Below, piece after piece: positions 9,901-33,043 of a DNA stretch of 33,587 bases. Source of the stretch: a virus. Every line of letters starts with the position of its first letter. The first letter of the stretch is position 1. Both the position numbers and the translations under genes were made by a program. The notes beneath the pieces were generated by a model. The model saw only the letters and a program-made list of their open reading frames with translations. It had not been told where the DNA came from and did no database searches. The stretch covers positions 1 through 33,587 of IMG/VR virus record IMGVR_UViG_3300020473_000077. One strand, given 5' to 3'.

Positions 9901-11567
9901 TTATTAATACCATTAATAATTATTGGTTCATCTGCAATAAAATTACCATTTTTCTCATAAACAGTTAATCCTACTCCAGAAGTAACAGAATTTACAAGAA
10001 ATGCTGTAGCACCACTTTGCTTACCTTCAATAAAAGCAGGAACAGATTGAGTAATTGGTTGATTTAATTCTAACTCACTAAAAGTTTGTACATCATATAA
10101 CGCAAGATCCCATTGATTTTTGGCTCTATCTGATTCAGCAACTTCATAAGTACCTGATTCAAGTCTAAAATCATATACTCTAGCAAGACCAACTTCTTTA
10201 CCTGGAACAGTTTCCGAGTTAACACCAACTCTCTGATCTCTTAAACTTAGAACATATGTACTACCAATACCTACTGTCGGAGTTCTAAAAACACTATTAA
10301 TTTTAAAAGTTGGTCCAGTATTATAAATTATATTTTGATTTTGTAAAGTTTTAACTTCTCTTGGTTTAGCTACATCAAGGAATGTGGGATTTACTGTTTC
10401 AAGTTCATATCCTTTAACATATGCCTTACCTGGAGAAATTTTATATAATGCTAAATCATCACTTGGAGTTTCTCCACCCTGTGTAAATTGACCTGCCCTA
10501 TATACTCCTCTATTTCCAATATTATCATTTAAAGATTCTAATAAAGTAACATCAAAAGGTTTTACATCATAATTACCACTCTCATCATAAGTTCTTCTTG
10601 CAAGAGTGTCAGTTATATCAAAGTTGGATGAATAAGGTGAACCTCCTCCACCTCCACCAAGAGCAGCACCTCCACTAGAACCACTTCTTTTAGATCTTAG
10701 AACTCCTGGTTGATTATTACTACCAATAGTAGCTAATTCAACAAAAGCATTATCATCAAAATCATCTAAAGGTTTTTTAAATAAACTAAGATTAATTTTT
10801 AACCTATCCGCACCTGGTGCAGCATAGTTATTAAATCCTTGTGAATTATCATTTAAAGATGGGTCTATATCAGGAGTGATTATCTCTTCATTAACAAATA
10901 ACCCAACTCTATATTGTGGAGCACTATTATATTGATCAAGTATAAGAGTCTCTTGATTTACATTACAAAATTGACCTCTAACAAAATATACACCATTTTG
11001 AATTTGGAAAGAGGAACCTGTTACAGCAGCATTTCTTGATATTGTAAATCCAAATGGAGCACCAGGAGAAATTGCAGCATTACCTAATAAACCAGAAGTA
11101 ATTAATTGATTACATACCAATTCTTCACCATCAGAAAATGTTTGTGTTGAATTATTCCCTGTATTTGAAGTGAGATAATTTATATAAAGAGTAGTTTGAT
11201 TTCTATCTGAATCTTCTGGAAAAAGAACACTATCAACAACAGCACTTACTCCAGATCTTAATCCAGTAATTTTTGTTCCAATTAATTGGTCTATATACGC
11301 AGTTACAGGAATTCCTTGATAATTATTATTGATTTGAATACCATAATAAAGTCTATTATATCCAGTATTACCAGGTATTACTTTAGCACCTTCTTTAAAA
11401 AAATGTTGACCAAATTTTTCAATTTGGTTCTGCATTATTGATTGCAGAGCTGTTAATTCTCTAGCCTGAACAGGATATCCTGGCTTAAATAATACCCGAT
11501 AAAAATCATCCGACGGATTATAATCATCAAAATATGGGGCTACATTTAAGTTTGTTTGCTGTGGCAT
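3915..11567 (-). CDS. Giant 2550-aa baseplate/tail structural protein (DUF4815-like N-terminus)
   Basis: The N-terminus (YFDDYNPSDDFYRVLFKPG, YPVQARELTALQSIMQNQIE, HFFKEGAKVIPG; residues 10-67) matches the DUF4815-type domain of large marine-phage structural proteins. A Gly-rich linker (six consecutive Gly) lies near residue 305. A possible coiled segment (MSDIKNLENRVKNLEYYTTL) is near 1160-1185. A DPLAQSFLVEDDGGVF block at about 1725 begins a beta-rich domain seen in other such proteins. GxGY modules lie near 1960-2055 and an IGKEVIEYN...RG module near 2167-2202. The C-terminal 150 residues (IILSGHSNPYANIRAFYAV, FRYYRVKLLLTS) look like a terminal binding domain. The gene follows gp8 by six bases, the slot of T4 genes 9-12 (peripheral baseplate and short fibres). 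A peripheral baseplate or host-contact role is inferred; direct homology to gp9-gp12 is not visible. Confidence 0.85.
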   Translation of the reverse strand: MPQQTNLNVAPYFDDYNPSDDFYRVLFKPGYPVQARELTALQSIMQNQIEKFGQHFFKEGAKVIPGNTGYNRLYYGIQINNNYQGIPVTAYIDQLIGTKITGLRSGVSAVVDSVLFPEDSDRNQTTLYINYLTSNTGNNSTQTFSDGEELVCNQLITSGLLGNAAISPGAPFGFTISRNAAVTGSSFQIQNGVYFVRGQFCNVNQETLILDQYNSAPQYRVGLFVNEEIITPDIDPSLNDNSQGFNNYAAPGADRLKINLSLFKKPLDDFDDNAFVELATIGSNNQPGVLRSKRSGSSGGAALGGGGGGSPYSSNFDITDTLARRTYDESGNYDVKPFDVTLLESLNDNIGNRGVYRAGQFTQGGETPSDDLALYKISPGKAYVKGYELETVNPTFLDVAKPREVKTLQNQNIIYNTGPTFKINSVFRTPTVGIGSTYVLSLRDQRVGVNSETVPGKEVGLARVYDFRLESGTYEVAESDRAKNQWDLALYDVQTFSELELNQPITQSVPAFIEGKQSGATAFLVNSVTSGVGLTVYEKNGNFIADEPIIINGINNGRTAIGVTDYTVSDVLSVYGTDDGTTGINTFSANIIPSTLFDVGIATVGIDKGAAGTLIKSTNPNFPGITTIGNLIQYSDLNISEDPILARVISVTSNSVSVVGVATVTGVCNGGLPIVGVNTLGQNTTGITTAAAYKDVTDLKVLATKFDVSTDNTLFTRLSKTNISNVDLTGASVVIRQTFNVNISNGRLETPVPTVDTNQSFQPFTPKRYALIGADGKTHELTEDQFDFGSGNTCQIRGLTNPPAANKGATLIATIKKQKPKAKQKIRNAVKSVVVNYSKDAASGIGTTTLNDGLTYGAYPYGTRVQDKNISINDADIIEVLGIYESADTSAPSAPKITLSSIVSESTTTNELIIGEQLIGQNSNAVAMVAEKPSDSIITIIYQNEHLFKEGETVNFQSSGVSAIVNALNSPSFNISPNFQFVDGQQSTIYNIGQIKRKFDSDAPSKQIKIYYSNGSFDANDNGDFITINSYDQYDYGIDIPKVDGISNSDVIDIRPRASQVSSVSEGDRSPLEFKGRNFNASGNSAPNILASDETLLTDFSFYLGRIDRIFLTKEGRFQIKYGDPSEDPQKPVPVDNAIEIATVRLPPYLYNVAGAQIDFLDRKRFTMSDIKNLENRVKNLEYYTTLSLLETNTANMFVADDDGLNRFKSGFFVDNFTGFKTQEQGLSIQNSIDPKNKELRPKHYTNSVDLIFGPVVGNDPNDDLNFATIEGINVRKKSNIITLDYSEVEFVKQNFATRSESVTPFLISFWQGTMELTPSSDTWVDTARLQPKIINVEGDYTSVYNRMVENGEIDEQTGFGPLTWGSWQTTWTGTTTNDTTRDTVIANQTRVFGMGGWINNFSGGFGNPARRIRETIGRVTRETTRTTTQQGVQNRTGTQTLVTESFDRTSVGDRVVSRDLIPFMRSRNIEFIAKRVKPLTRLYAFFDGQDVTKYCVPKLLQISMTSGSFQVGEKVIGMVNPTGLSQITADSLPEINFRVAQSNHKEGPYNLPTKTFSENPYTNQPFAASYSSTSTVLNVDTFSLSNEPQGSYYGWVEPGMILRGQNSGAIATIDDVQLLSDIGAFCGGSFYIPNPNNISFPRFETGSKVLTLTNDPDNDPDNATTLTDETFTSAGTLESVQESIVSVRNARIEQRQQFQRRNTNRSLGTEVVGSEVLNEVRTQEIIGWYDPLAQSFLVEDDGGVFVTKCDVFFRTRDDMDIPVVFQIRSMKNGLPTQHVLPFSEVVLDPSQVNTSADGSVATSVEFKAPVYLEGSNTEYAVALASNSTKYSVYISRIGETDLLTNSFISNQPYLGSLFKSQNASTWEPSQWEDLKFTLYRAEFETSGTVEFYSPELTRGNNQIPTLAPDSLILGSRRIRVGLGTTVGDSYELGNTIIQDGTMAEGNIVGSGGSITPAGLSITNAGIGYTPLDGNQTFSSVNLVTVTGTGKGAVADVYVNNGVAAAATITSGGTGYSVGDVLGITTIGISTGGSGTVGRDARFSITGIGMTNELTIDNVQGEFVVGTANTLFYTNSSGIKTELGFANGGDVQISSIDVESDGLHIQVNHKNHGMYSTDNRVEISNVQTDVKPTKLSIALETGNESTISVDDGSIFENFENVGVGTTNRGYVKIGKEVIEYNNVTGNLVTISARGNDKVDYSVGTPVYKYELGGVSLKRINTTHGLSTTTSTATSGAITFDSYNIKLDMTGIGTINDDRSNDVGFPKLYLNQTKSCGGYEIKATQNMPFEVITPIVENVTTTGTTLGCELRTTSAASISGDETPYLDEGFETIAIGEPNYLSTPRAVYSKINEDEKLDQVEGNKSLQMRLTLGTTDPKVSPVIDGERVSTILTNNRVNSIISNYATDSRVKTITDDPTACQYITKELQIENPATSIKIILSGHSNPYANIRAFYAVGNDPGFEPIFTPFPGYNNINNRGQLIAPQKSDGLSDRVIPPSSQYGFGDNANFLEYTFTADKLPTFRYYRVKLLLTSTSQVFVPKVKDLRVMALA

Positions 11568-13167: not shown

Positions 13168-16100
13168 TCAAGGAGTTTTATATTGCTTATATTTAAGTGA
13201 TTCAGATCTTCTTACTACTGGAGAAGTAGAAATTCCACCTGTTCCACCTAAAGTATATGCGTTATAAGTATTACTTTCAGATCTTGCAACTAGGTTAATT
13301 TTACCCCAACTGTATGATCCAAAATAATTACCAGTTTGAATACCAGCACCTGTGAATGATGGCCATTGACCACTCCAAGTATTGAAGTTGGTTACTTTTA
13401 CAAACACCCTATTAAGATGGGTTGTACCTATGCCAACACCCGTAGTTCCAACTCCTGTTGGAGCTTGAACTATTTCATAATTATTAACTTCATAAACGTT
13501 ATTTAGGAATTGAGTTCCTACTCCAATAACAGCACCACCAGTATCCACAGAATTAATTGATGTAGTTGCACTACCAACTGTAGAATTATTAACTATAAAG
13601 AAGTCACCTGTAGATATTCCACTAATAGTAACTGCTGTTCCAGTAATATTAGAATCTCTTAGATCTGATGTAAGAGGAATATGTAAGTCAAATATCAATT
13701 GATAGTTGGTTGAACCAGCTCCAATTGTAGTAGTACCAAATCCAACAATAATACCAGAATCACCTTGATAATAATCAACTTTATTTTCTTCTTCAGACCA
13801 TACTGGAGGACTAATAAGAACCATAGGTGGATTGGATGATGTATATCCAGCACCAACACTTGTAATTGCAATACCAGTAATAGTGCCAGCAGCACCTATT
13901 ATTGGAGATCCAAAGGCAGTTGTAGATGTTGAACCAACACCAACCTCACTACCATTTAAAGAAGTGGTTGCAAAACTTACAGTAGCAGTACTATAACCAA
14001 CACCACCAGTAGAAATAGCAACAGAAGAAATTGTTCCTAAACCAGATACAATTGCAGTACCAGCAGCACCAATCTTATCTTCTTGAGATATTATCTTCAC
14101 TTTCTTCTGGAAAGCAAAATCATTTGCTACAGGTGCAACATTATCAACTTCATCATATGGATCAAAGTATGGTCTTGCATTTTCAACATAAATGACAGTT
14201 GATCCTATTCCAACAGATTTAATAATAGGTGAATAAGGATTAATAACAGGTTCATAGAGTTCTCTATCTTTACCCACACCCTTTTCATTAATAATTTTAT
14301 CTTCAGTTTGTCTACACCAATTAATTGGTCTTTCTAAATTAGAATCAGGAGTATTACCTGGTCCATGATATGGTGGAGTTGAAACAACATCAGTAGAATC
14401 AACACTAATAGGAACTCGTATATTTTCTTGTAACCAAGTATCTTGAGTTTGTAAACGTCCTATAGTTAAATCATCACCTGGTTTTACAGTTTCTATAACT
14501 TTTCTTTCAACAACATCCTGAGATCCAGTTCCTTTATAGAAAATAATTTCAATAGTATCACCAGACTTAGGTGCTTCTGTGAAAGTTAATACACTTCCAC
14601 CAGGGAATGTATATCCTTTTCCAGGAACTTGAGGAATGTTATTAACAAATACCAATAGAAGATCTTGAACATCAATCTTAGATCCCTTCTTAGCAACAAT
14701 TGAAGTTGATTCTCCATTAAGTGTTAATGGGAAATCTATTCTACTTCCATCAATATATCTTTCAACATTATCAAGAACTTCTAATTGACCAACAGACCAT
14801 CCAGTAAATTCGTCATTAAATACTCTTTCAATATCAATCAACATTTCAGTAAATGTTTTACTTGGATCAGTTGGAATACCTGTGGTTCCACCAATAGGAA
14901 CTGTTAATTTTTCAAGATTACCATAACCACTACCAGTATTCTGAATAGTAAATTTAACTACACTAGAACCTTGACCAACAACAACATCAATAGTAGCATT
15001 TGTTCCTATTCCAGTAGATGTATCACTATATTCTAAAGGAATATTGCTATAAGATAGTGGATCATCAAAGACTACCTTACTATATCCTTCAACTACTCCA
15101 CCTCTAGAATATTCATGATTTCTAGTTGATATTCCAGTTTGAGTTTCAAATGTCTTACTATCAATAACACGTAAGATTTCACTTCCATTTGCTGCAACAT
15201 CAAATTTACTACCAGAATTATTATTCAATCTAGGAGCTATAATTGCAGACTGAACAGATCCCAATCCAACATAGAAAGTTGGAACTGTGGATACCCCAAT
15301 ATTACACTCAAATGTAGTAGTTCCTACACCAACAGCAGTAACTGTTGTTCCTGTGTAATAAGGATCTGGTTTTCTAGGATATCTATGAACAGATGCATAG
15401 TTATCTCTTGAACATCTAAAGGATAATGATTCGGTTTTTATACCAATACTTTGTCCTGTAAGTAGACTATGACCTGCACCAATACTTACTGTTAATATTC
15501 CAGCAGAAGCACTATAAGATGCGGTAGAAATACTATAAAGAGCAGTCTTAGATGTACCTACATTAAGAGTAATAGTATCATCTGTTTTTGAGTCAATATT
15601 AATAGAAGTACTAAATCCTGGATCAGTATATCTTGGGTAAGTGTGTATTGTTGCATAATCATCAAATTCACATCTAAATCTTAAACTATCTTGCTTTAAC
15701 CTTACACTAGTATCTGCAGATAATCCATGACTAGCAATAGAAAGAACTAAAGCTCCTGTATCAGGATTATAACTAGCATCACTAACATTATGAGTTACAG
15801 TTGCAGAAGTTCCAACATAAACAGTAATGGTGTTTTCCGTATATCCCGTAATTGCAGTAGTAATTCCTGCAATAGGATCTGTTGAACGAGGATAAGCATG
15901 ATTTGATGTATGACTATCCATCGAACAAGTAAATACAATACCACCTGTAGCAATTCCAATAGTATCACTATCAGAAAGACCATGAGAAGGAATAGTAAGA
16001 ACTAAGTTTCCAGTTGCAGCATTATATGTTGCATCAGTAGCAGTTGTTGTTCCAATACCTGTTACACTTACACTTCCAATACCAGAACTCACAAATGTAT

Positions 16101-19100
16101 GATTATAATCACCACCACTAATAACAGCAGCAGGATCTGATCCAACAAACCTGTGAGCATAAGAACCACCAGCAACTATAGCACCAGAAGTAGCAGATAC
16201 GAATTGATGAACAAACTGATCTCCATTAGCAGCATATCCTACATCAATTGCAATATCCCCATCATTATGTGTAAGTCCATTAGCAAGTGCGCTAACAAAG
16301 GTATGAACACCAGTATTAGTGGAAGGTGCTACAGGAAGAACATTAACTCTAAATGTATTAGTTGTTTTATTTGAAATTGTTATCCACTGATTAGCAATAG
16401 TATCTGATTTTCTAGGATAAGTGTGTGAAGTAATATGATTATCCTTATCACAAGTAAATGTTAATGAATTAGGTGTAAATTTAACTTTATCTCCATTAGA
16501 CATTCCATGACTAGGAGAAGTAACTGTCATGATACCAGTGTTGGGATTATACACGGCATCTGTTACAGTTTTCTTAGCACCATCCTTAGTAATCTCAACT
16601 GCAGTATGATATGCAGAATCTTGTCCTCTTGGATAGTAATGAGTAGATGCTCCATTATCTAATCCACAAGTAAATGCTAATCCAGTAAAGACTACAACAC
16701 TCTTCTGACCACTAGTTGATAAACCATGACCAACAGCAGTTGTAACTGTCATGATACCAGAAACATTATCATAGACTGCAGTATGAATACCCATTCTAGG
16801 TGCATAATCGCAAGTAAATGCAATACCAGAAAGTCTCACTTCATCACCAACAGATAATCCATGATCAGTCTGTGTTGTTATGGTAGAAATACCAGTAACT
16901 GAACTATATCCAACATTTGCAACTTTTCTAGGTGAATAGAAAATGTGATCTGCATTAGTAACAGCAATTCCTGTAATATGTCCAGTCGTAATTTGTGCTG
17001 TTCCTATTCCAATTACATTTGTACCAACACGACTTAGAGTTTGTATACCAACATTAACAGTCTGAATACCTGCTCTATAACCAGAACCTGTATTACCAAT
17101 ACTGATAGATTTAATAGTACCACCAGCAGAAACTGCAACAGTACCACCTGCTGCTACTAAAGGTTGATATCCAAAACCTTCACTAGATCCAACAGAAACT
17201 ATTATTCCACCTTTAGGAAGATTTCCTACATTTACGTCAGAAGTTGAACTTCCAGTACCAGTAAATGAAATTGTCGTTACACCAACAGTAGGATCTTCTG
17301 TTATTGTAAATTCATTAGTTGTTCCTGAAGTTTGGAATACATCATTAATAAGAACAATAGCAGTATCAGTGACAATTCCAGAAACATTAGATCCACCAGA
17401 TTCTAAAGTAAACTCAGATTTTTGCCCATTAAACTGAGAAGAAATACTATCAAAAATGTAGTTCCTCCAATATGGTTCATTTGCAGTATCTGGAACACCA
17501 GAACGCATAAATGTTCTTCCCTCAAAACTAGATCCAGTAGAAATTCCTACCCAATCTCTTGAATCTGGTGGATTTGTAGCAGTACTTAAAGGAACATTGC
17601 CATAAGGTGCTTCTACAAAGTTTATTGTATTATCAACAATATTATAATTACCATCTACCTTAGTAATCAAAGTTCCTGTGCCATATCCTGCTAAAGCAGT
17701 TCCAGCCCAAGGTCTTCTAACCTTAATAAGATTATCATTTCCACCTTGACCAATAGAATCAATTCTTAATATTTCATTACCAATCTTAATTAAGTCACCA
17801 CCATAGAATGATGTAATTCCAGCAAACTCTATAACATCAGTAGTAGTGAATACTTGATCTGCTAACTGTGTAGTTACGGCAGTTGAAACAATAGGTGATT
17901 GGAGAATATTGTCTATTGATACTAATGCCTTTTTATTCTGATTAACAGCATTAAAACAGTGAGAAGTTCCAATACCTACACTTGTGATATCAACCACCTC
18001 TGGGACGGTCTGAAGTGCCTTAGAGACACTCTCTGCAAGCTTAATGGTTTCATCGTCAATCTTAACTGCATATACTGTACTTGGTAATAAAGTAGTTGTA
18101 CCAATTCCAGCAAATCCATTAGTACTAGCAATTCCAAGTGCCATAGTATATCCAGTACCAGGATTTGTATAAACAAGTTCCTCACCAGTAACAAAGAAAT
18201 GATTTGGAAGATTGATAGTATTATTTGCAATATTAACTACTGAACTATCACTACCATCAAATGGTTTTCTAAAAATTGGATCAGTTTTATGTGATAATCC
18301 AAATGCTCTTAATACAGCACTTTCAGTCCCTGTATATTCACCAAAACCACACTCAATAACTCCATTATTAAAATCAATAGTATCTTTAGTATCATCCTGT
18401 ATTCTTACAGCATTCATATACACATTAACTTGTGCATTAATACTTGCTACAGGAGTAAAGAGTAAGGAAACAGTTCCTGCAGAAGATACCTTTGATCCAA
18501 ATGTTCCTAGTCCAGTTGGAGAGACTCCCGAAGAAACATTACCCCAATCCACATCATATGTTTCTGTTGTTGATTCTGAAACATAATCAGTAACTACTGC
18601 AAACTCAAACATCTCATAAGCTTGATTTGTTGCATCAGTAACTTGAATAGTTCCATATGCAGCTTCATATTCAGATGGCCATGAACCAACAGTATTAATT
18701 CCAGGTGAAGATGAAGATTCTATTTCAGTTGTTCTATTTTCTAATCTTGCATGTTTAAGATCAACAGTTCCAATACCAGTATAAGCAGAGTCTGCCATAC
18801 CAACAAGAATTGTATTAATAACCCCAGTTGTTCCTATACCAACACTAGAATTGGCAATAAAATCAACCTTCAATTGTGTGCCATCAATATAACCACGATA
18901 AGTGCCAAGACCACCAATTGCTTCTGGAGTAGAAACTGTAGTCATTCTACCATATTCCATTATATCAACTTCATCACCATTATGAATAATATTCAATTGA
19001 TTATATTCATGCTCTTTACCACTAATATCAGGATTAATATTAATAATAACTTTTGCAGATCTATAAGTGCTTGCAATACCAACAATCGTTGTTGTTCCAG

Positions 19101-22100
19101 TTCCAGTTCCTATTGTAACACTTTCAGAATCAATTAATGACCTACCAATAACAGTACTACCAGTACTCAATAAATTATCATCAAGATTATAGGAAATAGC
19201 AGTAACCCAATAATCATTAACAGCATATTTGATTGGATAGAAGTTTAATAATCCCTCACTACCAGAAATAGCAAAATCAAAATCTCCTTGATCATAAACA
19301 CTTTCAACTCTTCCATATTGGTTAATATATCCTTGAGCACTATCGTGAATAATATCAACAATCATCAATTGTCTTTGAGCACCAAATCTTTTATCTCTTA
19401 CATAAGTAATATATTTTAATGCTCTTCTATCTGCTAATGTCCATCTATTAACAGTACTAAATCTAGTAGCTCTTGGATTGCTATTAAAGGTTCCACTAAA
19501 GTCATCTATAGAAACTACTCTGTTTCCAACAGATTCTGTATAATCTTTCAATATTCTGCTTGAAAATGTTATTTCATCAGAAATAGCATCATTCTCATTA
19601 ATATTCAAAGCATTTTCCGTAGCTAAATCGAAATCATATACACAATTTAAATTACCAATACCATACAGATCATTCACTATAGAAAAATCACATAATTCTG
19701 TTGATAATCCAACTCTAGAGGAAGCAGTTGATTCTAATTGATAATCAGCAAATTTTTTAAATCCTAAAGTATGATTTAATGAAGAAACAGGTTCATCCCA
19801 AGTTTCATAATCAATTCTAGAACTTAAAGAATATGAAAGGTTTTGATAATAATCACTATCTTGAATCCTTTGTGCATTATCATTAAGATATCCTGAATTA
19901 GTTTCCCATCCTTTTTCAACTTTAGTAGTTGAATTTAATTTCATATATGAATCAAAAGTTTTTATAGAAGAAGCAACTCCTTGAGTACCTGAACCAGTTC
20001 CTTTTAAAACTTCATTAACAAGGAATCCTTTAGTATTAGTAACTCTTAAAATTCCAACATCAGGTTGCCAATTTTGAACAACTCCAGTAGTACTACTAAT
20101 TGATCCAGTAACAGTTTCTCCTTTAATGAAATCATTAGGTGACAATTCAACATTAAATGTTGGCATGAATTTTTGAGGAACAATTCTTCCATTTGAATTA
20201 ATAAAATCAAATGTACCTGGTGATGAACCTGGAGCTAATCCTGTAAAGTAGTTGGAAAGGTTGTATGTAACAGTTCCAATACCACCATAATTTTCATCAA
20301 CTGCTGTTATTTCAAAAAGTTTATAATCATAATCTTTAGAATTATATCCTCTTGCGGTAGTACCAATTCCTACACCAATACCTTCCACAAATACCTTATC
20401 ACCAACTGCAATTGGGAAAGTGTCAGCAGTACTAAATCCGACAGATAATTGTACTGTTACATCATAATTTTCAGTATTAAATCCAACAGTAGCAATTCCA
20501 ACACCATTACTATTCTTATCAGTAATAATAGTAGGAGGAGAATTGCTAATACCTTTAGTATTCTTTAAAATTTCCACATTAGGATTTCCTAATGTATATT
20601 TTAAATCAAGATCAAGAACAGGTTTTTGAGTTTTACCATCAAGAACAATTAAATCTGGTGAAGAAATATATCCTCTTCCGAAAGATGTTACTCCAACAAA
20701 ATCAACAGACATCAAAGATTCTATTCTAATAATTTCAGGTAAAGCAGCATCTGGTGATACAGTAATATCAGATGGGAAATCATATCCAATATCTTTAACC
20801 TTTAAAGTTTTAATATTTCCAACCGAAGTACTTTTTGGTTCAAGAATTGCACTATTACCCAATAGACTAGTAATTGTACTAACACCAGGAAGACTATAAT
20901 AATTTCTACCAGGATTTGTTATTTCAAGATTTGCAATAGAACCATATGCAGACGGACTATCAGTTTCATAGGATATAAATGATGTAGTTCCATATGAAAG
21001 TCTTTCTGGAATTTCCGACATACTATATGTAAATTGATCTGTAGCACCTATAGTAATTCTTTGCTTTCCACTAAAAATACTATCAGATAATTGAATTTCA
21101 TTTCCAGTTATAACATCAGTATCTACAACTACATTCTTTTTAGTAAGAGGTAAATTACTTTCAAGAATAGGATCTAAAGAATAGTATAATATTTCTGGAA
21201 TATCTTTAGTAACTGATAAACTAACTTTAGCATCAGTTGATATTCCTATAGTTCCATTTCTTGTAACATTAAAAGTTTTAGAAAGAGGAGATGTTTCCCA
21301 TATTTTTGTTAGATTTTTATCAGAATAGAAATTTAATTTAAATGCAGAATAATCAGTAGATTGAACAACATAACTTAAAGATGAATCACTAAGATCAAAT
21401 TCAACTATAGAATTTTTATATACTTTTAAAGGTGGATTAATAGGACTTATTGTTCCTTCTGAAGTACTGGTAAAACCTACTACATTTGGTTTTGAATCTC
21501 TAGCATCATAATCTGTTTCGCATAATTTAAAACTATTAATATCAACTCTTAAAACATAATAAATTCCATTATCATTTAAACCCCCTATAGGAGTAGATGC
21601 TGTATGAATAATTTTATCTCCAGTTTCATAACCATGTTCGTTTATTGTAATAGAATTGGTAGTCGTATTAACTCCAGAAGCAGCAAATGATTTTGGATTA
21701 AATACAACTCTTCTATTATAATCATTATACTTAACAGTTACGGTAGTTGTAAGACCAGAAACAACATCCATGTATACATTTTCATAATTTAATAAACCAT
21801 GAGTTTCACCAGTAGATACCGTTGCAGTTGTTCTACGAATTTCTCCAGTAATTACGCTATGATTAGTCTTAAAGCTATGATAAACTCCAGTACCCAATCC
21901 AGAGAAGAATACTGTTGTACTACCCCTCTGTGTGCTTGCAATACCTACAAAAGTACCTGTACTACCTAAACCAACCTTAACAGTGGATATACCTATTAAA
22001 TCATTTGTAATAACACCCGCATAAAGTGTTTGACCATCTGTTAATGTAGATATACCTGTATCAACAGCATCTGATCCATCCCATCTTACATTAAGACCTT

Positions 22101-25100
22101 CACCTTGGTTAGGAGAATATGTCAATTTATCACCAGTCTTCAATCCATGATCAGGAAGATAAATTGCTTTTGTTTGAATAAACTTCTGAGTTATACCAAT
22201 TCCAGGATTACTAAATGCAATTGTAGTTCCAATACCAACTCCAGACCTTGTACCTAAACCAACTGAATCAATTGGATTAAAATAAATTTGATCATTTATT
22301 CTATACTCATAATCTGAAGTAAATCCAGCATTAATAGTAATTCTTCGTGGATCTTCAAGAATTTCAGAAGTTACTGTATGAGAAACTCCTGTAACTCCAT
22401 TAACAGCTCTAAGAACTCTAATTCGTGAAAGAAGAGGTTCTATACTTAATACTTTTACAGTTTCTGTTCCAATTCCAAGAATATCATTAGATCTAATTGA
22501 TGGAAAAGATAAATTTCCACGAACATTCAAATGTGTTACTATACCCGTAGCACCATCTGTTCCAATTGCAACAGATGTGGTTCCAATTCCAGTTAAACTA
22601 AGTCTATTAGAACTAATTCCTGCATTATAAACCCCAGAAATTTCTGAAGAAGTTGTAGATAATCCTGTAACAGTAATAATATCACGATTAACCCAATTAT
22701 GAGGTTCTGTACTAATAAGATCATAAACCCCTTGAAATTTCCTTGAAGGATATATTTCTACATTTGTTATACTACTAGTAGCAGCACTTACACTACTTAC
22801 AGGTTTTCCAAGAAGTCTTGTGACTCTAGCAGCAGCGTCAAATCCATCAGTACCACTATTATTAAATACAACCTCATCACCGATTTGATAATTACTACCA
22901 CCAGTAACAATACCAATACTCTCCAAAACACCTGGTTTAGTTCCTACAACTTCAAGAGATTGGGATAAATTATTAGGAAGAGGTAGATATGGATAATATG
23001 GTTCATCATCCTGAATTAAATTATATGGAGTCGTATTTCTAGCCCATTTATATTCACTAGTATCTCCTAAATCATAAATGTCTTGATTTGAATTGGGTGA
23101 GAAATTAAAATCATTTGGAGTTGAATAATAACACTTACCAATCAAATAAGGGAAAACAGGTAACTTATAAGTATTAAATTGTCCACCTTGCTCTGCACCA
23201 GAATCATCAATTGTTGCAAAATAAGCATAAGTTCCATTTGGAAATTCTGGAGTTACACAAAATCTTCCATTATTCTCATCTAAGACAGTTTCATCACTTA
23301 CTGCTTTATAAGTAAAGTCTTCTATAAAGAATTTTGGAGGGAAAACACTTAAAGGAGGTCTATTTTCCTTAATTGAAGCTTCGTCAAGATACCCAGTTTT
23401 CATCTGAGTTACTGTACCACCTGCATTCTTAATATATCCATATGGACCATAAATTGGATTTCCATCATATGCCCAACCAATAATTGGAGAATGATTATCA
23501 GATGGAACTTCTTGTCCATTAACTTTTCTTAAATCTGTTTCACCATATAAAGAATTCCCTTCTTGATTAGTAGCATAGACTGTTTGTCTTAATTTTCTAG
23601 GCGCATATAAATGACTATATTGAAGCTCAATATCACCTTTCTGTATAAATCCATCATCATCAGTAATTTGTTGAGTTTGATAATATTTTTCAAATAAATT
23701 GACATTCCATTTTTGAATACTTGAACGTGTTTTACAATCTGTTCCAGCAGATAAAACTGAAACTGTTGTATCCTTAGAATAACCAGATCCTTGTTTAAGA
23801 ACTTTAACACCATCTAAGATATACTTAATAGTTGTTCCTACACCAACAGCTGACTCAGATCCATTAAGATCAACTATCTTTAAAAGAGGAGTTAATACGC
23901 AACCTGAACCTGATCCAGATATTTGTAAATCTGGTGGTGAGTTATAATAATTGCCTTTACTGTTTACAATAACTTCAATAATATTTCCACCAAAACTTAC
24001 GACAGGAGAAACTTCTGCCTCAGATCCCTTAACAAAAGTTACTTCTGGTTCTCTAACAAAATTAACAACCTCTGATGCTCCATATCCAACACCATTATTT
24101 GATAAATGAATAGATGTTATTTCACCTCTGAATATAGGTTGAACTTTAAGTTCAAAAGTCTCAGATCCTACTGAATTGATACCAACATCACCAGATATAC
24201 TTACACTAATATCTTGATAATTAAAAATGTGAGTTCCTACTCCAATAGATGTTAAAGGTCTATATTGTTTAGTTTTATGATAGAAATCGTTAGATGTAGT
24301 TCCTACACCAACACTTGATAAATAAAAACTATCATCATCCTTTTTGGTAACATAAAAATCAGTGTCGGTTGTAAGACCTGCTATTGGTGTTCCATCACAA
24401 GTATAAGTAATAATTTCTCCAGACTCATAATCATGATTTTTAATATTAATACAATTTAAAGCAGTGTTTATACCTGCAGGAACAGCAGTTCTCTTTTTAT
24501 TTTGATATCCACTTCCACCAGAAACTACATTAATAGATTCTACAATAGATTTTGTTTTAAAAGATTTAAAAGATTGTACTCCTTGTCCTCTAGAAGTTAA
24601 TACAATTGTATTAATTCCTGCTAAAGCACCTGCTTGATCTTTATGAAGTCTTAATGTGGTTCCACCAGTTCCTACTAAAGAAGCATAATAAGTTGCACTA
24701 GTAGTTAATCCACCAATAACATCTTGATTATTAGTAACATAAACAACTTCTTCTGCGTTTTTAAATTTATGAAAAGTGGTAAATCCAATTGTAGAGGCTA
24801 AAGTACCCGTTGTACCCAATCCTACTAAAGGAGAATATGAATAAAAATCAGAAGAATGATCAATATTCTCCATATTTACAGAAACACGAGCACCTGATCC
24901 ATTACCACCTGTAATTTTTATTGTAGGAGCCTGTTCATAATCAAATCCAGGATCAACAATTCTCATATCTTTTAGAGATCCAGATACTGCAACATATCCA
25001 GTAGCACCAGTTCCAACAGAATCTTTAATATGCAAAAATGGAGGATTTATAACATCATAGTCTCTTCCTCCTGCAAGAACATCTACACTCTTAAGTTCTC

Positions 25101-27366
25101 CATAATGAACTTGATCAAATGATTTATAATTTAAAATTTCTACACCATTTACTAATATACCAGTATTTCCAGGAGTAGTTTCATATACAGTTCCTGTATT
25201 TTCTGGAGGACATACTTGCCTCAATAATTTTTGAGATTTTAAAGTTTTATTATTAAATTTAAATGGTGATATTTTATTATCAGTTACAATACCAGTTCTA
25301 TTAAGATCATTATCAATATTAATATACTTTCCATTATAAAGATCTGATGCACTCTTTGCAAATTTTACTGTTGTCTCATTTACTCTTTCAACAAAATATA
25401 AACCCTCATCCATCAAAGATGATTTGATAACAAAATTGTCTATAGAAGTTCCACTACCAGGATCTACATAAGCATCATTAACTATTTGTGGTGTATAATA
25501 GATTGCATCACCAGTATAAAATCCATGATCGAAGATAGGTACTCCAGATGGACTTGTTGTTGCATTTGTTATAATTTCATATTCATCACCACTAAAACTT
25601 CCACCAAAAATAATTTTTCCATCACTAACACCTAATGATTGGGATCCATATGTGGGAAGAGATGGAGATGCTACAAGTAACTTATCACTATTCCTATCCT
25701 TATATACATTCTGCACATTTGTAGAATATATAGATGTTTCAGTAAAATTAATAGCATTTGCTTTTAAAATTTGCCTTTCTATAGTATATTTTAAATCTGT
25801 ATTAATCTCACCCTGACCCTTTATAATAAATCCTCTAGAAGAAGTTAATTGAGTTATATCAGATACTGGTAAATTACGACCATCACTACCAACTAAAATC
25901 GCAACTGATTTATCACCTACCTTAAAATCATGGTCTGTAGTTAAGGTAATTTCATAAGTCCAATCAGAAGTATCTTTAAGAGTAATGCTTTCTACTTGAT
26001 ATACAGGAGCAATATTATAAAACCATGCTTTTTCTTTGAATCCTGTTTGCCCAACACCCAAAGTTTTAATTTCTATTTCATCACCTTTACCAAAAAGGCA
26101 ATTATTATCAGAATATTCAAGATTATCAATAACTGAAGTAATTCTAACTTCAATAGTTTCATCTTGATCTAAAACAGATTTTCCATATGCAAAAGTATTA
26201 ACTCCAACAGTTTCACCACTTAAAATAGTCTTACCAATTCCACTAACTCCAAAAAATTGTGTTAAACTCTTAGATGCATATGTACTAATACCGATAGTGT
26301 TATCAATATACCTAAAAAACAATTCTCCTGTAGTTCCAAACCCAACAGTAGAATCTACATCAATAACAGTAAGACCAGCTCCTACTTCTCCAACTACTCT
26401 TGATCTAGGTGGAGTAATAAAAGTACCATAAGTAGAACCTTCTACTCTAGAATCTCTATTATATCCAGCATCAATACTTAATTTATAATACGTACTCCCT
26501 GTGCTAACTCTAATAGGTTCGACATGAGTTATAGGTGCATATGCTTTATCAATACTACTTTGTTCATATGGATCTTGGTATAATGTAGATAATTCAAGAT
26601 TTTCAGGATTACCAAAAATAGGTTCTACAACAAAATCTCTTGTAATTTTATAATTTGCATTAGATGGTGTAAAAAGAAATTCAGAAGGTCTAACAATTTT
26701 TACATTTTCATTATATAAAGCTTTAAATAGAATTTCAAAACCTCTATCAGTACCCTTACTTAAATAAAAATCTTTTGCTTGTTTTATAAAAATATTTTCA
26801 TTTAAATCTGAAGATAATTTTCTTCCCTCAAATCCTGGTGTGAGTTGATGTTTACTTTTAACTAAAAATTCTTTGAGGAAAAGAGAACTTAAATTTTGTA
26901 TAGAATCCCCTTTACTGTGTATAGATGCACTTGATGATTCAAATACTAATTCTTCAGGATTAGTTGGACTATGATAAGAAGTTACTCCAACAAATCCTCT
27001 TACACATCCAGTAAAAGCAAAAGTAGTTATTCCTGTATATGTAATGATTTCATCATTAATTTTTATCAATCCATAAGAATCTGGAAACCCTTCAGTTCCA
27101 GTTGGATTTTTTTGCATATCAACAGGAATTATCTCACTCCCTACACCTACTGTAGCACCTAATCCAACATGGTTAGTTAAATTAACTTGTTCACTAATTT
27201 TTGTATATTCATCAATATTCTGAACAAGGTCAATTGGACCTCCTTGATATTCTTGTCCCTGATAATATGATTTTAAAAATTCCGCAACTAATGGATATTC
27301 ATTTATAACATACCGAGGAAGTTGGTTCTGAACAATGTTATTAAATTGGATTTTTTTTGTAGACAT
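13168..27366 (-). CDS. Giant 4732-aa baseplate protein at the gp7 position
   Basis: A single uninterrupted frame of 14.2 kb lies between gp6 and gp8, where T4 encodes the wedge protein gp7 (1032 aa). No clear sequence match to gp7 is visible, so the name rests on position. The N-terminus (MSTKKIQFNNIVQNQLPRYV, EYPLVAEFLKSYY, SKGTDRGFEILFKALYNENV near 203-222) looks like a conserved globular attachment domain. The rest is beta-rich and modular: repeated GxGYxxxP segments, HGLxxGDxI segments (for example near residues 630 and 1800), a YHYH-type domain at about 1285-1415, IGNEILRID...RRPWAGTA at about 3190-3225, tandem Cys/YPR repeats at about 3500-4010, and dozens of G-[IVL]-G-[TS]-T turns. No signal peptide or membrane segment is seen. 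It is probably a wedge core carrying very long exposed arms; host recognition is inferred. Confidence 0.85.
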   Translation of the reverse strand: MSTKKIQFNNIVQNQLPRYVINEYPLVAEFLKSYYQGQEYQGGPIDLVQNIDEYTKISEQVNLTNHVGLGATVGVGSEIIPVDMQKNPTGTEGFPDSYGLIKINDEIITYTGITTFAFTGCVRGFVGVTSYHSPTNPEELVFESSSASIHSKGDSIQNLSSLFLKEFLVKSKHQLTPGFEGRKLSSDLNENIFIKQAKDFYLSKGTDRGFEILFKALYNENVKIVRPSEFLFTPSNANYKITRDFVVEPIFGNPENLELSTLYQDPYEQSSIDKAYAPITHVEPIRVSTGSTYYKLSIDAGYNRDSRVEGSTYGTFITPPRSRVVGEVGAGLTVIDVDSTVGFGTTGELFFRYIDNTIGISTYASKSLTQFFGVSGIGKTILSGETVGVNTFAYGKSVLDQDETIEVRITSVIDNLEYSDNNCLFGKGDEIEIKTLGVGQTGFKEKAWFYNIAPVYQVESITLKDTSDWTYEITLTTDHDFKVGDKSVAILVGSDGRNLPVSDITQLTSSRGFIIKGQGEINTDLKYTIERQILKANAINFTETSIYSTNVQNVYKDRNSDKLLVASPSLPTYGSQSLGVSDGKIIFGGSFSGDEYEIITNATTSPSGVPIFDHGFYTGDAIYYTPQIVNDAYVDPGSGTSIDNFVIKSSLMDEGLYFVERVNETTVKFAKSASDLYNGKYINIDNDLNRTGIVTDNKISPFKFNNKTLKSQKLLRQVCPPENTGTVYETTPGNTGILVNGVEILNYKSFDQVHYGELKSVDVLAGGRDYDVINPPFLHIKDSVGTGATGYVAVSGSLKDMRIVDPGFDYEQAPTIKITGGNGSGARVSVNMENIDHSSDFYSYSPLVGLGTTGTLASTIGFTTFHKFKNAEEVVYVTNNQDVIGGLTTSATYYASLVGTGGTTLRLHKDQAGALAGINTIVLTSRGQGVQSFKSFKTKSIVESINVVSGGSGYQNKKRTAVPAGINTALNCINIKNHDYESGEIITYTCDGTPIAGLTTDTDFYVTKKDDDSFYLSSVGVGTTSNDFYHKTKQYRPLTSIGVGTHIFNYQDISVSISGDVGINSVGSETFELKVQPIFRGEITSIHLSNNGVGYGASEVVNFVREPEVTFVKGSEAEVSPVVSFGGNIIEVIVNSKGNYYNSPPDLQISGSGSGCVLTPLLKIVDLNGSESAVGVGTTIKYILDGVKVLKQGSGYSKDTTVSVLSAGTDCKTRSSIQKWNVNLFEKYYQTQQITDDDGFIQKGDIELQYSHLYAPRKLRQTVYATNQEGNSLYGETDLRKVNGQEVPSDNHSPIIGWAYDGNPIYGPYGYIKNAGGTVTQMKTGYLDEASIKENRPPLSVFPPKFFIEDFTYKAVSDETVLDENNGRFCVTPEFPNGTYAYFATIDDSGAEQGGQFNTYKLPVFPYLIGKCYYSTPNDFNFSPNSNQDIYDLGDTSEYKWARNTTPYNLIQDDEPYYPYLPLPNNLSQSLEVVGTKPGVLESIGIVTGGSNYQIGDEVVFNNSGTDGFDAAARVTRLLGKPVSSVSAATSSITNVEIYPSRKFQGVYDLISTEPHNWVNRDIITVTGLSTTSSEISGVYNAGISSNRLSLTGIGTTSVAIGTDGATGIVTHLNVRGNLSFPSIRSNDILGIGTETVKVLSIEPLLSRIRVLRAVNGVTGVSHTVTSEILEDPRRITINAGFTSDYEYRINDQIYFNPIDSVGLGTRSGVGIGTTIAFSNPGIGITQKFIQTKAIYLPDHGLKTGDKLTYSPNQGEGLNVRWDGSDAVDTGISTLTDGQTLYAGVITNDLIGISTVKVGLGSTGTFVGIASTQRGSTTVFFSGLGTGVYHSFKTNHSVITGEIRRTTATVSTGETHGLLNYENVYMDVVSGLTTTVTVKYNDYNRRVVFNPKSFAASGVNTTTNSITINEHGYETGDKIIHTASTPIGGLNDNGIYYVLRVDINSFKLCETDYDARDSKPNVVGFTSTSEGTISPINPPLKVYKNSIVEFDLSDSSLSYVVQSTDYSAFKLNFYSDKNLTKIWETSPLSKTFNVTRNGTIGISTDAKVSLSVTKDIPEILYYSLDPILESNLPLTKKNVVVDTDVITGNEIQLSDSIFSGKQRITIGATDQFTYSMSEIPERLSYGTTSFISYETDSPSAYGSIANLEITNPGRNYYSLPGVSTITSLLGNSAILEPKSTSVGNIKTLKVKDIGYDFPSDITVSPDAALPEIIRIESLMSVDFVGVTSFGRGYISSPDLIVLDGKTQKPVLDLDLKYTLGNPNVEILKNTKGISNSPPTIITDKNSNGVGIATVGFNTENYDVTVQLSVGFSTADTFPIAVGDKVFVEGIGVGIGTTARGYNSKDYDYKLFEITAVDENYGGIGTVTYNLSNYFTGLAPGSSPGTFDFINSNGRIVPQKFMPTFNVELSPNDFIKGETVTGSISSTTGVVQNWQPDVGILRVTNTKGFLVNEVLKGTGSGTQGVASSIKTFDSYMKLNSTTKVEKGWETNSGYLNDNAQRIQDSDYYQNLSYSLSSRIDYETWDEPVSSLNHTLGFKKFADYQLESTASSRVGLSTELCDFSIVNDLYGIGNLNCVYDFDLATENALNINENDAISDEITFSSRILKDYTESVGNRVVSIDDFSGTFNSNPRATRFSTVNRWTLADRRALKYITYVRDKRFGAQRQLMIVDIIHDSAQGYINQYGRVESVYDQGDFDFAISGSEGLLNFYPIKYAVNDYWVTAISYNLDDNLLSTGSTVIGRSLIDSESVTIGTGTGTTTIVGIASTYRSAKVIININPDISGKEHEYNQLNIIHNGDEVDIMEYGRMTTVSTPEAIGGLGTYRGYIDGTQLKVDFIANSSVGIGTTGVINTILVGMADSAYTGIGTVDLKHARLENRTTEIESSSSPGINTVGSWPSEYEAAYGTIQVTDATNQAYEMFEFAVVTDYVSESTTETYDVDWGNVSSGVSPTGLGTFGSKVSSAGTVSLLFTPVASINAQVNVYMNAVRIQDDTKDTIDFNNGVIECGFGEYTGTESAVLRAFGLSHKTDPIFRKPFDGSDSSVVNIANNTINLPNHFFVTGEELVYTNPGTGYTMALGIASTNGFAGIGTTTLLPSTVYAVKIDDETIKLAESVSKALQTVPEVVDITSVGIGTSHCFNAVNQNKKALVSIDNILQSPIVSTAVTTQLADQVFTTTDVIEFAGITSFYGGDLIKIGNEILRIDSIGQGGNDNLIKVRRPWAGTALAGYGTGTLITKVDGNYNIVDNTINFVEAPYGNVPLSTATNPPDSRDWVGISTGSSFEGRTFMRSGVPDTANEPYWRNYIFDSISSQFNGQKSEFTLESGGSNVSGIVTDTAIVLINDVFQTSGTTNEFTITEDPTVGVTTISFTGTGSSTSDVNVGNLPKGGIIVSVGSSEGFGYQPLVAAGGTVAVSAGGTIKSISIGNTGSGYRAGIQTVNVGIQTLSRVGTNVIGIGTAQITTGHITGIAVTNADHIFYSPRKVANVGYSSVTGISTITTQTDHGLSVGDEVRLSGIAFTCDYAPRMGIHTAVYDNVSGIMTVTTAVGHGLSTSGQKSVVVFTGLAFTCGLDNGASTHYYPRGQDSAYHTAVEITKDGAKKTVTDAVYNPNTGIMTVTSPSHGMSNGDKVKFTPNSLTFTCDKDNHITSHTYPRKSDTIANQWITISNKTTNTFRVNVLPVAPSTNTGVHTFVSALANGLTHNDGDIAIDVGYAANGDQFVHQFVSATSGAIVAGGSYAHRFVGSDPAAVISGGDYNHTFVSSGIGSVSVTGIGTTTATDATYNAATGNLVLTIPSHGLSDSDTIGIATGGIVFTCSMDSHTSNHAYPRSTDPIAGITTAITGYTENTITVYVGTSATVTHNVSDASYNPDTGALVLSIASHGLSADTSVRLKQDSLRFRCEFDDYATIHTYPRYTDPGFSTSINIDSKTDDTITLNVGTSKTALYSISTASYSASAGILTVSIGAGHSLLTGQSIGIKTESLSFRCSRDNYASVHRYPRKPDPYYTGTTVTAVGVGTTTFECNIGVSTVPTFYVGLGSVQSAIIAPRLNNNSGSKFDVAANGSEILRVIDSKTFETQTGISTRNHEYSRGGVVEGYSKVVFDDPLSYSNIPLEYSDTSTGIGTNATIDVVVGQGSSVVKFTIQNTGSGYGNLEKLTVPIGGTTGIPTDPSKTFTEMLIDIERVFNDEFTGWSVGQLEVLDNVERYIDGSRIDFPLTLNGESTSIVAKKGSKIDVQDLLLVFVNNIPQVPGKGYTFPGGSVLTFTEAPKSGDTIEIIFYKGTGSQDVVERKVIETVKPGDDLTIGRLQTQDTWLQENIRVPISVDSTDVVSTPPYHGPGNTPDSNLERPINWCRQTEDKIINEKGVGKDRELYEPVINPYSPIIKSVGIGSTVIYVENARPYFDPYDEVDNVAPVANDFAFQKKVKIISQEDKIGAAGTAIVSGLGTISSVAISTGGVGYSTATVSFATTSLNGSEVGVGSTSTTAFGSPIIGAAGTITGIAITSVGAGYTSSNPPMVLISPPVWSEEENKVDYYQGDSGIIVGFGTTTIGAGSTNYQLIFDLHIPLTSDLRDSNITGTAVTISGISTGDFFIVNNSTVGSATTSINSVDTGGAVIGVGTQFLNNVYEVNNYEIVQAPTGVGTTGVGIGTTHLNRVFVKVTNFNTWSGQWPSFTGAGIQTGNYFGSYSWGKINLVARSESNTYNAYTLGGTGGISTSPVVRRSESLKYKQYKTP
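15336..16866 (-). repeat. Tandem ~60-100-aa repeats with FTCxxD...HxYPRxxDP signature in the giant protein
   Basis: Residues of about 3500-4010 of the 4732-aa protein contain five related copies of [FL]xFxCxxDxxxxxHxYPRxxD, with Cys near 3575, 3645, 3819, 3905 and 3992, plus a diverged first copy (AFTCDYAPRMG near 3519). Each is preceded by a TDAxYNxxTGxhxhxxxSHGLSxxD-like stretch. Between the third and fourth copies lie four short HxFVS-type repeats (near 3700-3765). Cys, Asp, His and Tyr-Pro-Arg are the constant positions while the rest drifts, which is typical of old tandem duplication under structural constraint. Confidence 0.8.
23122..23514 (-). other. YHYH-type domain embedded in the giant protein
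   Basis: Residues of about 1285-1415 read SPIIGWAYDGNPIYGPYGY from H1292, then a KTGYL segment, ENNGRFCVTPEFPNGTYAYF around residue 1380, and finally PYLIGKCYYS. This order matches the YHYH domain (GWAxDGxPIYGPYGY ... LDExNGRfxvTPEyPnGTYxYxxT). The eponymous Tyr-His-Tyr-His position appears here as Y1380-A-Y-F1383, so both histidines are missing. The function of the family is unknown; inside a virion protein it is probably a structural or receptor-facing insert. Confidence 0.75.
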
Positions 27367-32015: not shown

Positions 32016-32113
32016 AAAAAATTTTCGTGGAATTTATATATAGCTCTCGAATTCGGTTCGTTGTAGGTTAGGGACTTTCACTTTTTTATAAACGGCAACG
32101 CCCGCACCGCACG

Positions 32114-32442: not shown

Positions 32443-32715
32443 TCAGTTATAATAATTCAACGGACAATCTACGTCTTCTATGTAACACTTACAGTCCTCA
32501 ATCTCTTGCATTTCTAATACTTTTCTCCAATCAATTTCTCTTGGATTAAAGTCATCAAGCACGTCTAATTCTAGTGTTATTCTATACTTAGTCTTCTGTC
32601 CGTATGTGTAAGAAACTGACATGAGATTAGAGGGTTGGGGGTGATACTTAGTATTATAATATGATTGTGGAAAAGTGTCAATAATTACAGTATTATTATG
32701 TATAAATCTTGACAT
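32443..32715 (-). CDS. 90-aa hypothetical protein
   Basis: The protein has a beta-strand-like N-terminal half with alternating polar residues (MSRFIHNNTVIIDTF, SVSYTYGQKTKYRITLELDV) and a C-terminal half VLDDFNPREIDWRKVLEMQE followed by DCKCYIEDVDCPLNYYN. The DDFNPxEIDWxKxL pattern resembles small uncharacterised proteins I associate with T4-like cyanophages. Three Cys residues near the end (CKC and DC) could bind a metal or stay reduced. There is no signal peptide. A TTTTCCACA DnaA-box-like site (32666-32674) falls inside the coding sequence. GTAGGG lies about 18 nt before the ATG. The function is unknown. Confidence 0.75.
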   Translation of the reverse strand: MSRFIHNNTVIIDTFPQSYYNTKYHPQPSNLMSVSYTYGQKTKYRITLELDVLDDFNPREIDWRKVLEMQEIEDCKCYIEDVDCPLNYYN

Positions 32716-32755
32716 TTATAAAATTGTAATATCCCTACAAAATATAAACGAGGGT

Positions 32756-32785
32756 TTGACAATTAAACCGAGTTCGTGTTATACT
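32756..32785 (+). promoter_or_regulatory. Plus-strand sigma70-type promoter TTGACA-18-TATACT
   Basis: TTGACA (32756-32761), an 18-nt spacer and TATACT (32780-32785) point away from all genes in the window. The -10 box sits inside a CCGAG...CTCGG inverted repeat (32768-32772 with 32789-32793), which could be an operator. No plus-strand gene follows: the first ATG downstream, near 32974, gives only 14 codons. The transcript would therefore be non-coding, antisense to the small minus-strand genes beyond 33044 if it is long enough. Confidence 0.6.
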
Positions 32786-32829
32786 CTGCTCGGTAAGATC
32801 ACTATAAAATCAACACTTTATTTCACATA

Positions 32830-33014
32830 TTATCCACAGTAACTAACAACAATTCCACACGTATTCCACTACATTACTAACACTTTTCCACACACTTGTT
32901 GAAAAGAGATACATTAAGCACCCCTATTTATTAGACCATTTTTATTACTAATTAAACGTAATTTAACTGAATTATGTATAGTTTTCCACAGAAATGCCTC
33001 CTAGTTGTGGAAAA
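32830..33014. repeat. Cluster of DnaA-box-like 9-mers (TTATCCACA / TTTTCCACA)
   Basis: Exact sites: TTATCCACA at 32830-32838 (+), TTTTCCACA at 32884-32892 (+), 32982-32990 (+) and 33006-33014 (-). Near matches: AATTCCACA at 32851-32859 and TATTCCACT at 32862-32870. Another exact copy lies outside at 32666-32674 (-), inside the 90-aa gene. By eye I found only 8-of-9 matches elsewhere (for example near 11800 and 20570). Confidence 0.65.
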
Positions 33015-33015
33015 C
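32981..33015. repeat. Perfect 10-bp inverted repeat with AGGAGG in the loop
   Basis: GTTTTCCACA (32981-32990) and TGTGGAAAAC (33006-33015) are perfect inverted repeats around a 15-nt loop. On the minus strand the loop carries AGGAGG, a full Shine-Dalgarno sequence, followed 7 nt later by GTG and a five-codon frame (GTG GAA AAC TAT ACA TAA). The arms are two opposed TTTTCCACA boxes. Confidence 0.75.
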
Positions 33016-33043
33016 TAAGAGACAAATCGTGTTTAATTGTTAT

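Follow-up and report, generated by a model that had tools for sequence, protein, structure and literature searches.

Origins of bacteriophage T4 (oriF/oriG type) combine a promoter with an AT-rich stretch and are primed through R-loops. To our knowledge these origins need no DnaA, and T4-type phages are treated as independent of the host initiator. Extrachromosomal replicons such as P1 oriR and pSC101 carry host DnaA boxes beside AT-rich DNA, and the Escherichia coli datA locus packs about five DnaA boxes into a short stretch of non-coding DNA. Cyanobacterial oriC regions, located upstream of dnaN (Synechococcus PCC 7942, Anabaena 7120, Cyanothece 51142 and Prochlorococcus), have TTTTCCACA boxes clustered in AT-rich non-coding DNA.

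The locus described here lies in a 33.6-kb viral record, referred to as the window. It shares the TTTTCCACA box and its clustering in AT-rich non-coding DNA with cyanobacterial oriC, but is phage-borne, has no adjacent dnaN or dnaA and no DnaA-trio, and differs in its box arrangement and in having flanking outward promoters. As at T4 origins, a promoter is aimed at an AT-rich stretch in a T4-like genome; unlike them, the tract has DnaA boxes. Host DnaA boxes beside AT-rich DNA are also the feature held in common with P1 oriR and pSC101, but those replicons have iterons for their own Rep, whereas no iterons or Rep were identified in the tract, which belongs to a lytic phage. The number of boxes and the short non-coding setting recall datA, from which the tract differs in that its boxes are consensus, are helically phased around AT-rich DNA, are accompanied by promoters, and are avoided elsewhere in the window's lineage. 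No known cyanophage replication origin or DnaA-box cluster was found in the literature searched, which covered few subscription papers, and a DnaA-box module in lytic T4-like phages is not described there.

The box cluster and its flanking promoters

The genes of the window are similar to those of the baseplate region in T4-like cyanophages (family Kyanoviridae). On the minus strand, two unusually long open frames, 13168-27366 (4732 aa) and 3915-11567 (2550 aa), probably encode large baseplate or tail proteins. Sites matching TTWTCCACA were counted across the window. There are five, all inside 349 bp (32666-33014), versus a mean of 1.3 and a maximum of 4 in shuffled versions of the window; about 2e-9 places with five boxes per 340 bp would be expected in a window of this kind. 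The boxes occupy a gene-free tract of roughly 420 bp (32623-33043), in which no tRNA and no Rfam family match was found. The features of the region are as follows.

32443..32622, minus strand: 59-aa conserved phage gene, PHROG 12516 (earlier listed as 90 aa)
32653..32681, minus strand: leftward promoter TTGACA-17-TATAAT, 12/12 consensus positions, reading into the 59-aa gene
32666..32674, minus strand: DnaA box TTTTCCACA, exact match, inside the leftward promoter spacer as in 34/102 relatives
32756..32785, plus strand: rightward promoter TTGACA-18-TATACT with extended -10, from the promoter scan
32778..32799, plus strand: conserved box-free core element GTTATACTCTGCTCGGTAAGAT, its pattern present in 111 stretches of viral contigs
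32830..32838, plus strand: DnaA box TTATCCACA (E. coli type), exact match
32884..32892, plus strand: DnaA box TTTTCCACA, exact match, left of the AT-rich stretch
32893..32981, no strand: AT-rich stretch (74% AT) between the phased boxes, candidate unwinding element
32897-32905, minus strand: one-mismatch DnaA box, following the box at 32884..32892
32982..32990, plus strand: DnaA box TTTTCCACA, exact match, left arm of the inverted pair (12-nt perfect arms)
33006..33014, minus strand: DnaA box TTTTCCACA, exact match, right arm of the inverted pair, 24 bp from its partner

The initial annotation had reported four exact boxes (one TTATCCACA, three TTTTCCACA) within 185 bp and a fifth 156 bp away, beside AT-rich DNA and an outward promoter. 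Its positions and box numbers hold up. The tract is 70% AT, rising to 74% between the boxes, versus 67% in the whole window, and both strands carry promoter-like sites. Its placement of the fifth box inside a 90-aa gene does not stand. The true start of this gene is the internal Met32 (32622): the alignment of PHROG family 12516 begins at Met32 of the 90-aa frame, and 136 distinct homologues of the 59-aa protein were found, of which the 45 listed all start at the Met32 position. The fifth box is therefore outside any gene, in a promoter spacer. An AT-rich candidate unwinding element is found next to the boxes, with a modest excess of AT; in relatives the DNA between boxes reaches up to 80% AT versus a background of 66-67%.

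The leftward promoter reads TTGACA-cTTTTCCACAatcatat-TATAAT, with the DnaA box within its 17-nt spacer. Of 102 relatives, 100 have its exact TTGACA, as a rule with a good -10 at a distance of 17 nt; the spacer holds a DnaA box in 34 of the 102 loci, and in others a box lies upstream of the -35. For the rightward promoter, TTGACA is exact in 32/103 relatives, and only this -35 counts as independent evidence because the -10 belonged to the search pattern. The rightward promoter points at the AT-rich stretch and the inverted pair, a layout reminiscent of T4-type R-loop origins, and no plausible plus-strand gene follows it in the window's list of open reading frames.

Conservation, spacing and likely reader of the boxes

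Three samples of related sequences, within each of which counts are not independent, were used to follow the boxes beyond the window. In the first, viral contigs were scanned for TTTTCCACA-N5..30-TGTGGAAAA, which retrieved at least 120 stretches. Cyanophage proteins accompany the pair in 89 of the 120 stretches listed, versus 3/120 for the reversed motif and 8/120 for the TTATCCACA version, and the neighbouring 255-aa gene is present in about 40 of the 120. The second sample was blind to the boxes, its loci being fetched with the neighbouring 255-aa protein alone. Upstream of the 255-aa gene, no 9-mer is more strongly enriched than TTTTCCACA, with 33 copies versus 0 in nearly three times more other DNA. 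Many relatives with the 255-aa gene have no exact boxes in this sample.

The third sample, anchored on one lineage, consists of 111 stretches retrieved from public viral contigs with the box-free core pattern GTTATAMTNNNCTCGSTWAGAT (window 32778-32799). Between -200 and +450 of the core, 342 exact boxes occur in 57 kb, versus 2 in the 763 kb that make up the rest of these loci; for the reversed motif the corresponding counts are 15 and 18. The boxes stand at stereotyped offsets from the core and are present in 70 of the 75 loci with enough sequence. Chance clustering is ruled out by this contrast together with the shuffles and the ~2e-9 expectation, and an artefact of base composition by the reversed motif, which has no comparable enrichment or phasing. 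For contigs from metagenomes, putative hosts were assigned from composition and relatives.

The spacing of the boxes follows the DNA helix. Start-to-start distances peak at 13-14, 23-25 and 34-36 bp in inverted pairs and at 11-12, 21-22, 32-33 and 42-43 bp in direct pairs, and a 10.5-bp periodicity remains strong in both orientations after removal of similar sequences. The commonest inverted-pair spacing in relatives is 24-25 bp, and that in the window is 24 bp. From the left box to the inverted pair, across the AT-rich stretch, distances are mostly 64, 74-75, 85, 120-121 or 130 bp and step by about one helical turn. Such phasing is, as judged from these distances, a requirement of touching proteins bound on one face of duplex DNA. 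A covarying hairpin at an ACCGAG/CTCGGT dyad was also considered; one compensatory change was seen, but many left arms break the pairing, and no inference was drawn. Inverted TTATCCACA pairs in other viral contigs (L617-L736), mostly without cyanophage proteins, have a main spacing of 23-24 bp, the same main spacing and phase as TTTTCCACA pairs, whereas the reversed-motif control differs. Pairs of DnaA boxes in helical phase may thus be frequent among viruses.

Tight groups of two or three exact boxes are found in 10 of 18 complete cultured cyanophages (S-SM2, S-RIM8, S-RIM50, QB2, Syn9, S-SM1, S-ShM2, P-TIM68, S-PM2 and Syn1). Each of these genomes has one cluster, with neighbouring boxes 12 to 31 bp apart; at about four boxes per 180 kb almost no such pairs are expected by chance. 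Eight of the ten carriers have the pair where the window has its cluster, a few kb upstream of baseplate genes; S-PM2 and Syn1 have it among small genes in a different region. The cluster is at about 52.6 kb in Syn9, about 41.5-41.7 kb in S-RIM8 and about 58.2 kb in P-TIM68. The other eight genomes (P-SSM2, P-SSM4, P-HM2, P-RSM4, S-SSM7, S-CAM9, Bellamy and SynMITS9220M01) lack a tight exact pair. The cluster is thus common but not universal in cultured cyanophages; universal conservation is ruled out by these eight genomes and by the many box-free relatives carrying the 255-aa gene.

Host origins were sampled as the regions upstream of dnaN in 17 low-GC genomes from the family of a Prochlorococcus genome. 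The most enriched 8-mers there are TTTTCCAC and TTTCCACA, both parts of TTTTCCACA, with 30 copies upstream of dnaN versus 0 further upstream, in 16 of the 17 genomes. TTTTCCACA is the published cyanobacterial DnaA box, for which DnaA binding in vitro has been reported for Cyanothece (PMC4674748). With a box profile built from host oriC only, the cluster is the top-scoring site of the window (96, versus 34 for the next) and, by smaller margins, also that of the complete S-RIM8 and S-SM2 genomes. The hosts possess DnaA. Six complete cyanophage genomes were searched for a DnaA DNA-binding domain and gave none, which rejects a phage-encoded DnaA as reader in the genomes tested and makes host DnaA the likely one. 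The boxes are thus, from their sequence, most likely read by host DnaA.

The initial annotation had proposed that the boxes are of host type; enrichment, identity with the oriC box, conservation and phasing strongly support them as such and as under selection. It had named a similar box density across the rest of the genome as grounds for rejection and conservation of spacing in relatives as a check. The 342-versus-2 contrast around the core and the stereotyped positions in ~10.5-bp helical steps both come out in its favor.

Proposed origin of replication and alternative readings

We propose that host DnaA binds the tract at 32623-33043 and that this conserved cis-acting site is most likely a replication origin, a claim for which we see about an even chance. 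A DnaA-assisted, transcription-coupled origin is favored ahead of a DnaA-responsive promoter and draws roughly half of our confidence. Among the origin, sponge and promoter options, an origin would fit the anatomy of the tract best: a cluster of host-type boxes beyond chance expectation adjoins the candidate unwinding element. From this arrangement we infer DnaA binding, melting, priming and origin activity. On one face of the helix, host DnaA would occupy boxes on the left side of the AT-rich stretch and the inverted pair on its right side, and the bound protein would bridge the two sides and strain or open the DNA between them. The rightward transcript, which has no evident gene, would then invade the opened DNA and prime the phage's own replisome, as at T4 origins, and the box in the leftward promoter spacer would make the 59-aa gene's expression depend on DnaA occupancy.

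Several observations count against an origin. In-phase TAG/TAA runs of the DnaA-trio type are not enriched near the phage cluster. A check of cumulative GC skew, suggested in the initial annotation, gave no turn and no origin signature in S-RIM8 or S-SM2, and says little about where replication starts. T4-like phages have their own annotated helicase loader, gp59, and 8 of the 18 cultured genomes have no tight pair; moreover, conservation would also be expected of a 5' regulatory region. In contrast to the phage tract, all 17 low-GC picocyanobacterial oriC regions sampled carry CTACTACT/AGTAGTAG runs resembling DnaA-trios.

Few marine viruses are as abundant as T4-like cyanophages. That a widespread group of these lytic ocean phages starts replication at least partly at an origin recruiting host DnaA is a tentative extension, to which we give slightly less than an even chance. 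If true, it would depart from the DnaA-independent T4 paradigm and tie phage replication to the host initiator and cell cycle. The DnaA-box module provides a precise, testable candidate origin, carried by Syn9, S-RIM8, P-TIM68 and other cultured phages.

The main rival to the origin is a promoter switch, in which DnaA represses or tunes the divergent promoters without origin activity; the level of host DnaA would then govern the output of the 59-aa gene and of the rightward transcript. We regard this as rather unlikely as the whole explanation, and both functions could coexist. A box overlapping a promoter is what a DnaA-regulated promoter would have, and one is found in the promoter at 32653-32681 of the window and, among 102 relatives, within the spacer of 34, with boxes upstream of the -35 in others and the promoter conserved in 100 of 102. 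The earlier suggestion of a DnaA-repressed promoter region is supported in this part, the box within a consensus spacer. However, many loci have no box at the promoter, and the inverted pair, which comprises the most constant boxes, lies ~300 bp away, past the AT-rich stretch. Even if the tract is only a promoter switch, the phages would sense host DnaA.

It is improbable that the motif merely resembles a DnaA box and is read by some other DNA-binding protein, encoded by phage or host. Phage-encoded regulators are common, and the identity of the reader as DnaA is deduced from the motif. However, this motif is both the top enriched host oriC word and the published cyanobacterial DnaA box, and its spacing agrees with that of TTATCCACA pairs in other viruses.

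A datA-like sponge, in which amplified phage copies would soak up host DnaA and stop host replication, is more doubtful still and appears highly improbable. Five close boxes in a short tract are present, comparable in number to E. coli datA, and phage copy number would multiply them. Extra boxes elsewhere would help a sponge, yet outside the cluster the window's lineage has 0 copies of TTTTCCACA versus 8.5-14 expected and 2 of TTATCCACA versus 8-12 expected; tolerance of extra boxes is an expectation of the sponge hypothesis, not its strict definition. In the 18 cultured genomes, about 44 unclustered boxes versus 36 reversed-motif hits indicate no avoidance. We give box avoidance moderate weight because the contigs are related and the cultured genomes neutral. 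Avoidance in the window's lineage points to a site where DnaA is wanted, and the conserved spacing and promoters exceed what titration needs. The sponge put forward in the initial annotation is thus disfavored and, because boxes are avoided elsewhere in the window's lineage, is the least supported of the origin, promoter and sponge options.

It is scarcely credible that the inverted pair works at the RNA level, as a terminator or processing hairpin, instead of as a protein site. The pair folds into a 13-bp RNA stem, and shuffles of the tract are less stable than the tract itself (z about -3). There is, however, no U-run after the arms, which rejects an intrinsic terminator, and no Rfam match; phasing extends to direct-repeat pairs, and loops differ in length by helical turns.

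Surroundings of the cluster

An inverted TTTTCCACA pair 44 bp apart is also present in Synechococcus WH7803 and in a Prochlorococcus genome, in the same gene neighbourhood (positions 769 and 813 of L419; 828 and 872 of L421), where the neighbours, judged by eye, are rpoZ, DUF1818 and DUF2811. This pair is a possible host DnaA site away from oriC. In the phage loci, AGGTTAGGG (window about 32066-32074), often extended to AGGTTAGGGTAG, occurs once per locus as a conserved element upstream of the 255-aa gene, in 31 loci and in none of the other DNA of the 255-aa sample.

Among contigs of at least 20 kb, 21 of 27 end within 1.2 kb to the right of the core element, where about 1 would be expected. 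Breaks to the right of window position 32800 are seen in L225, L235, L246, L249, L251, L269 and others, and the window itself ends ~800 bp beyond the core element, on the side where the other contigs break. A hypervariable island or recombination hot spot may adjoin the cluster.
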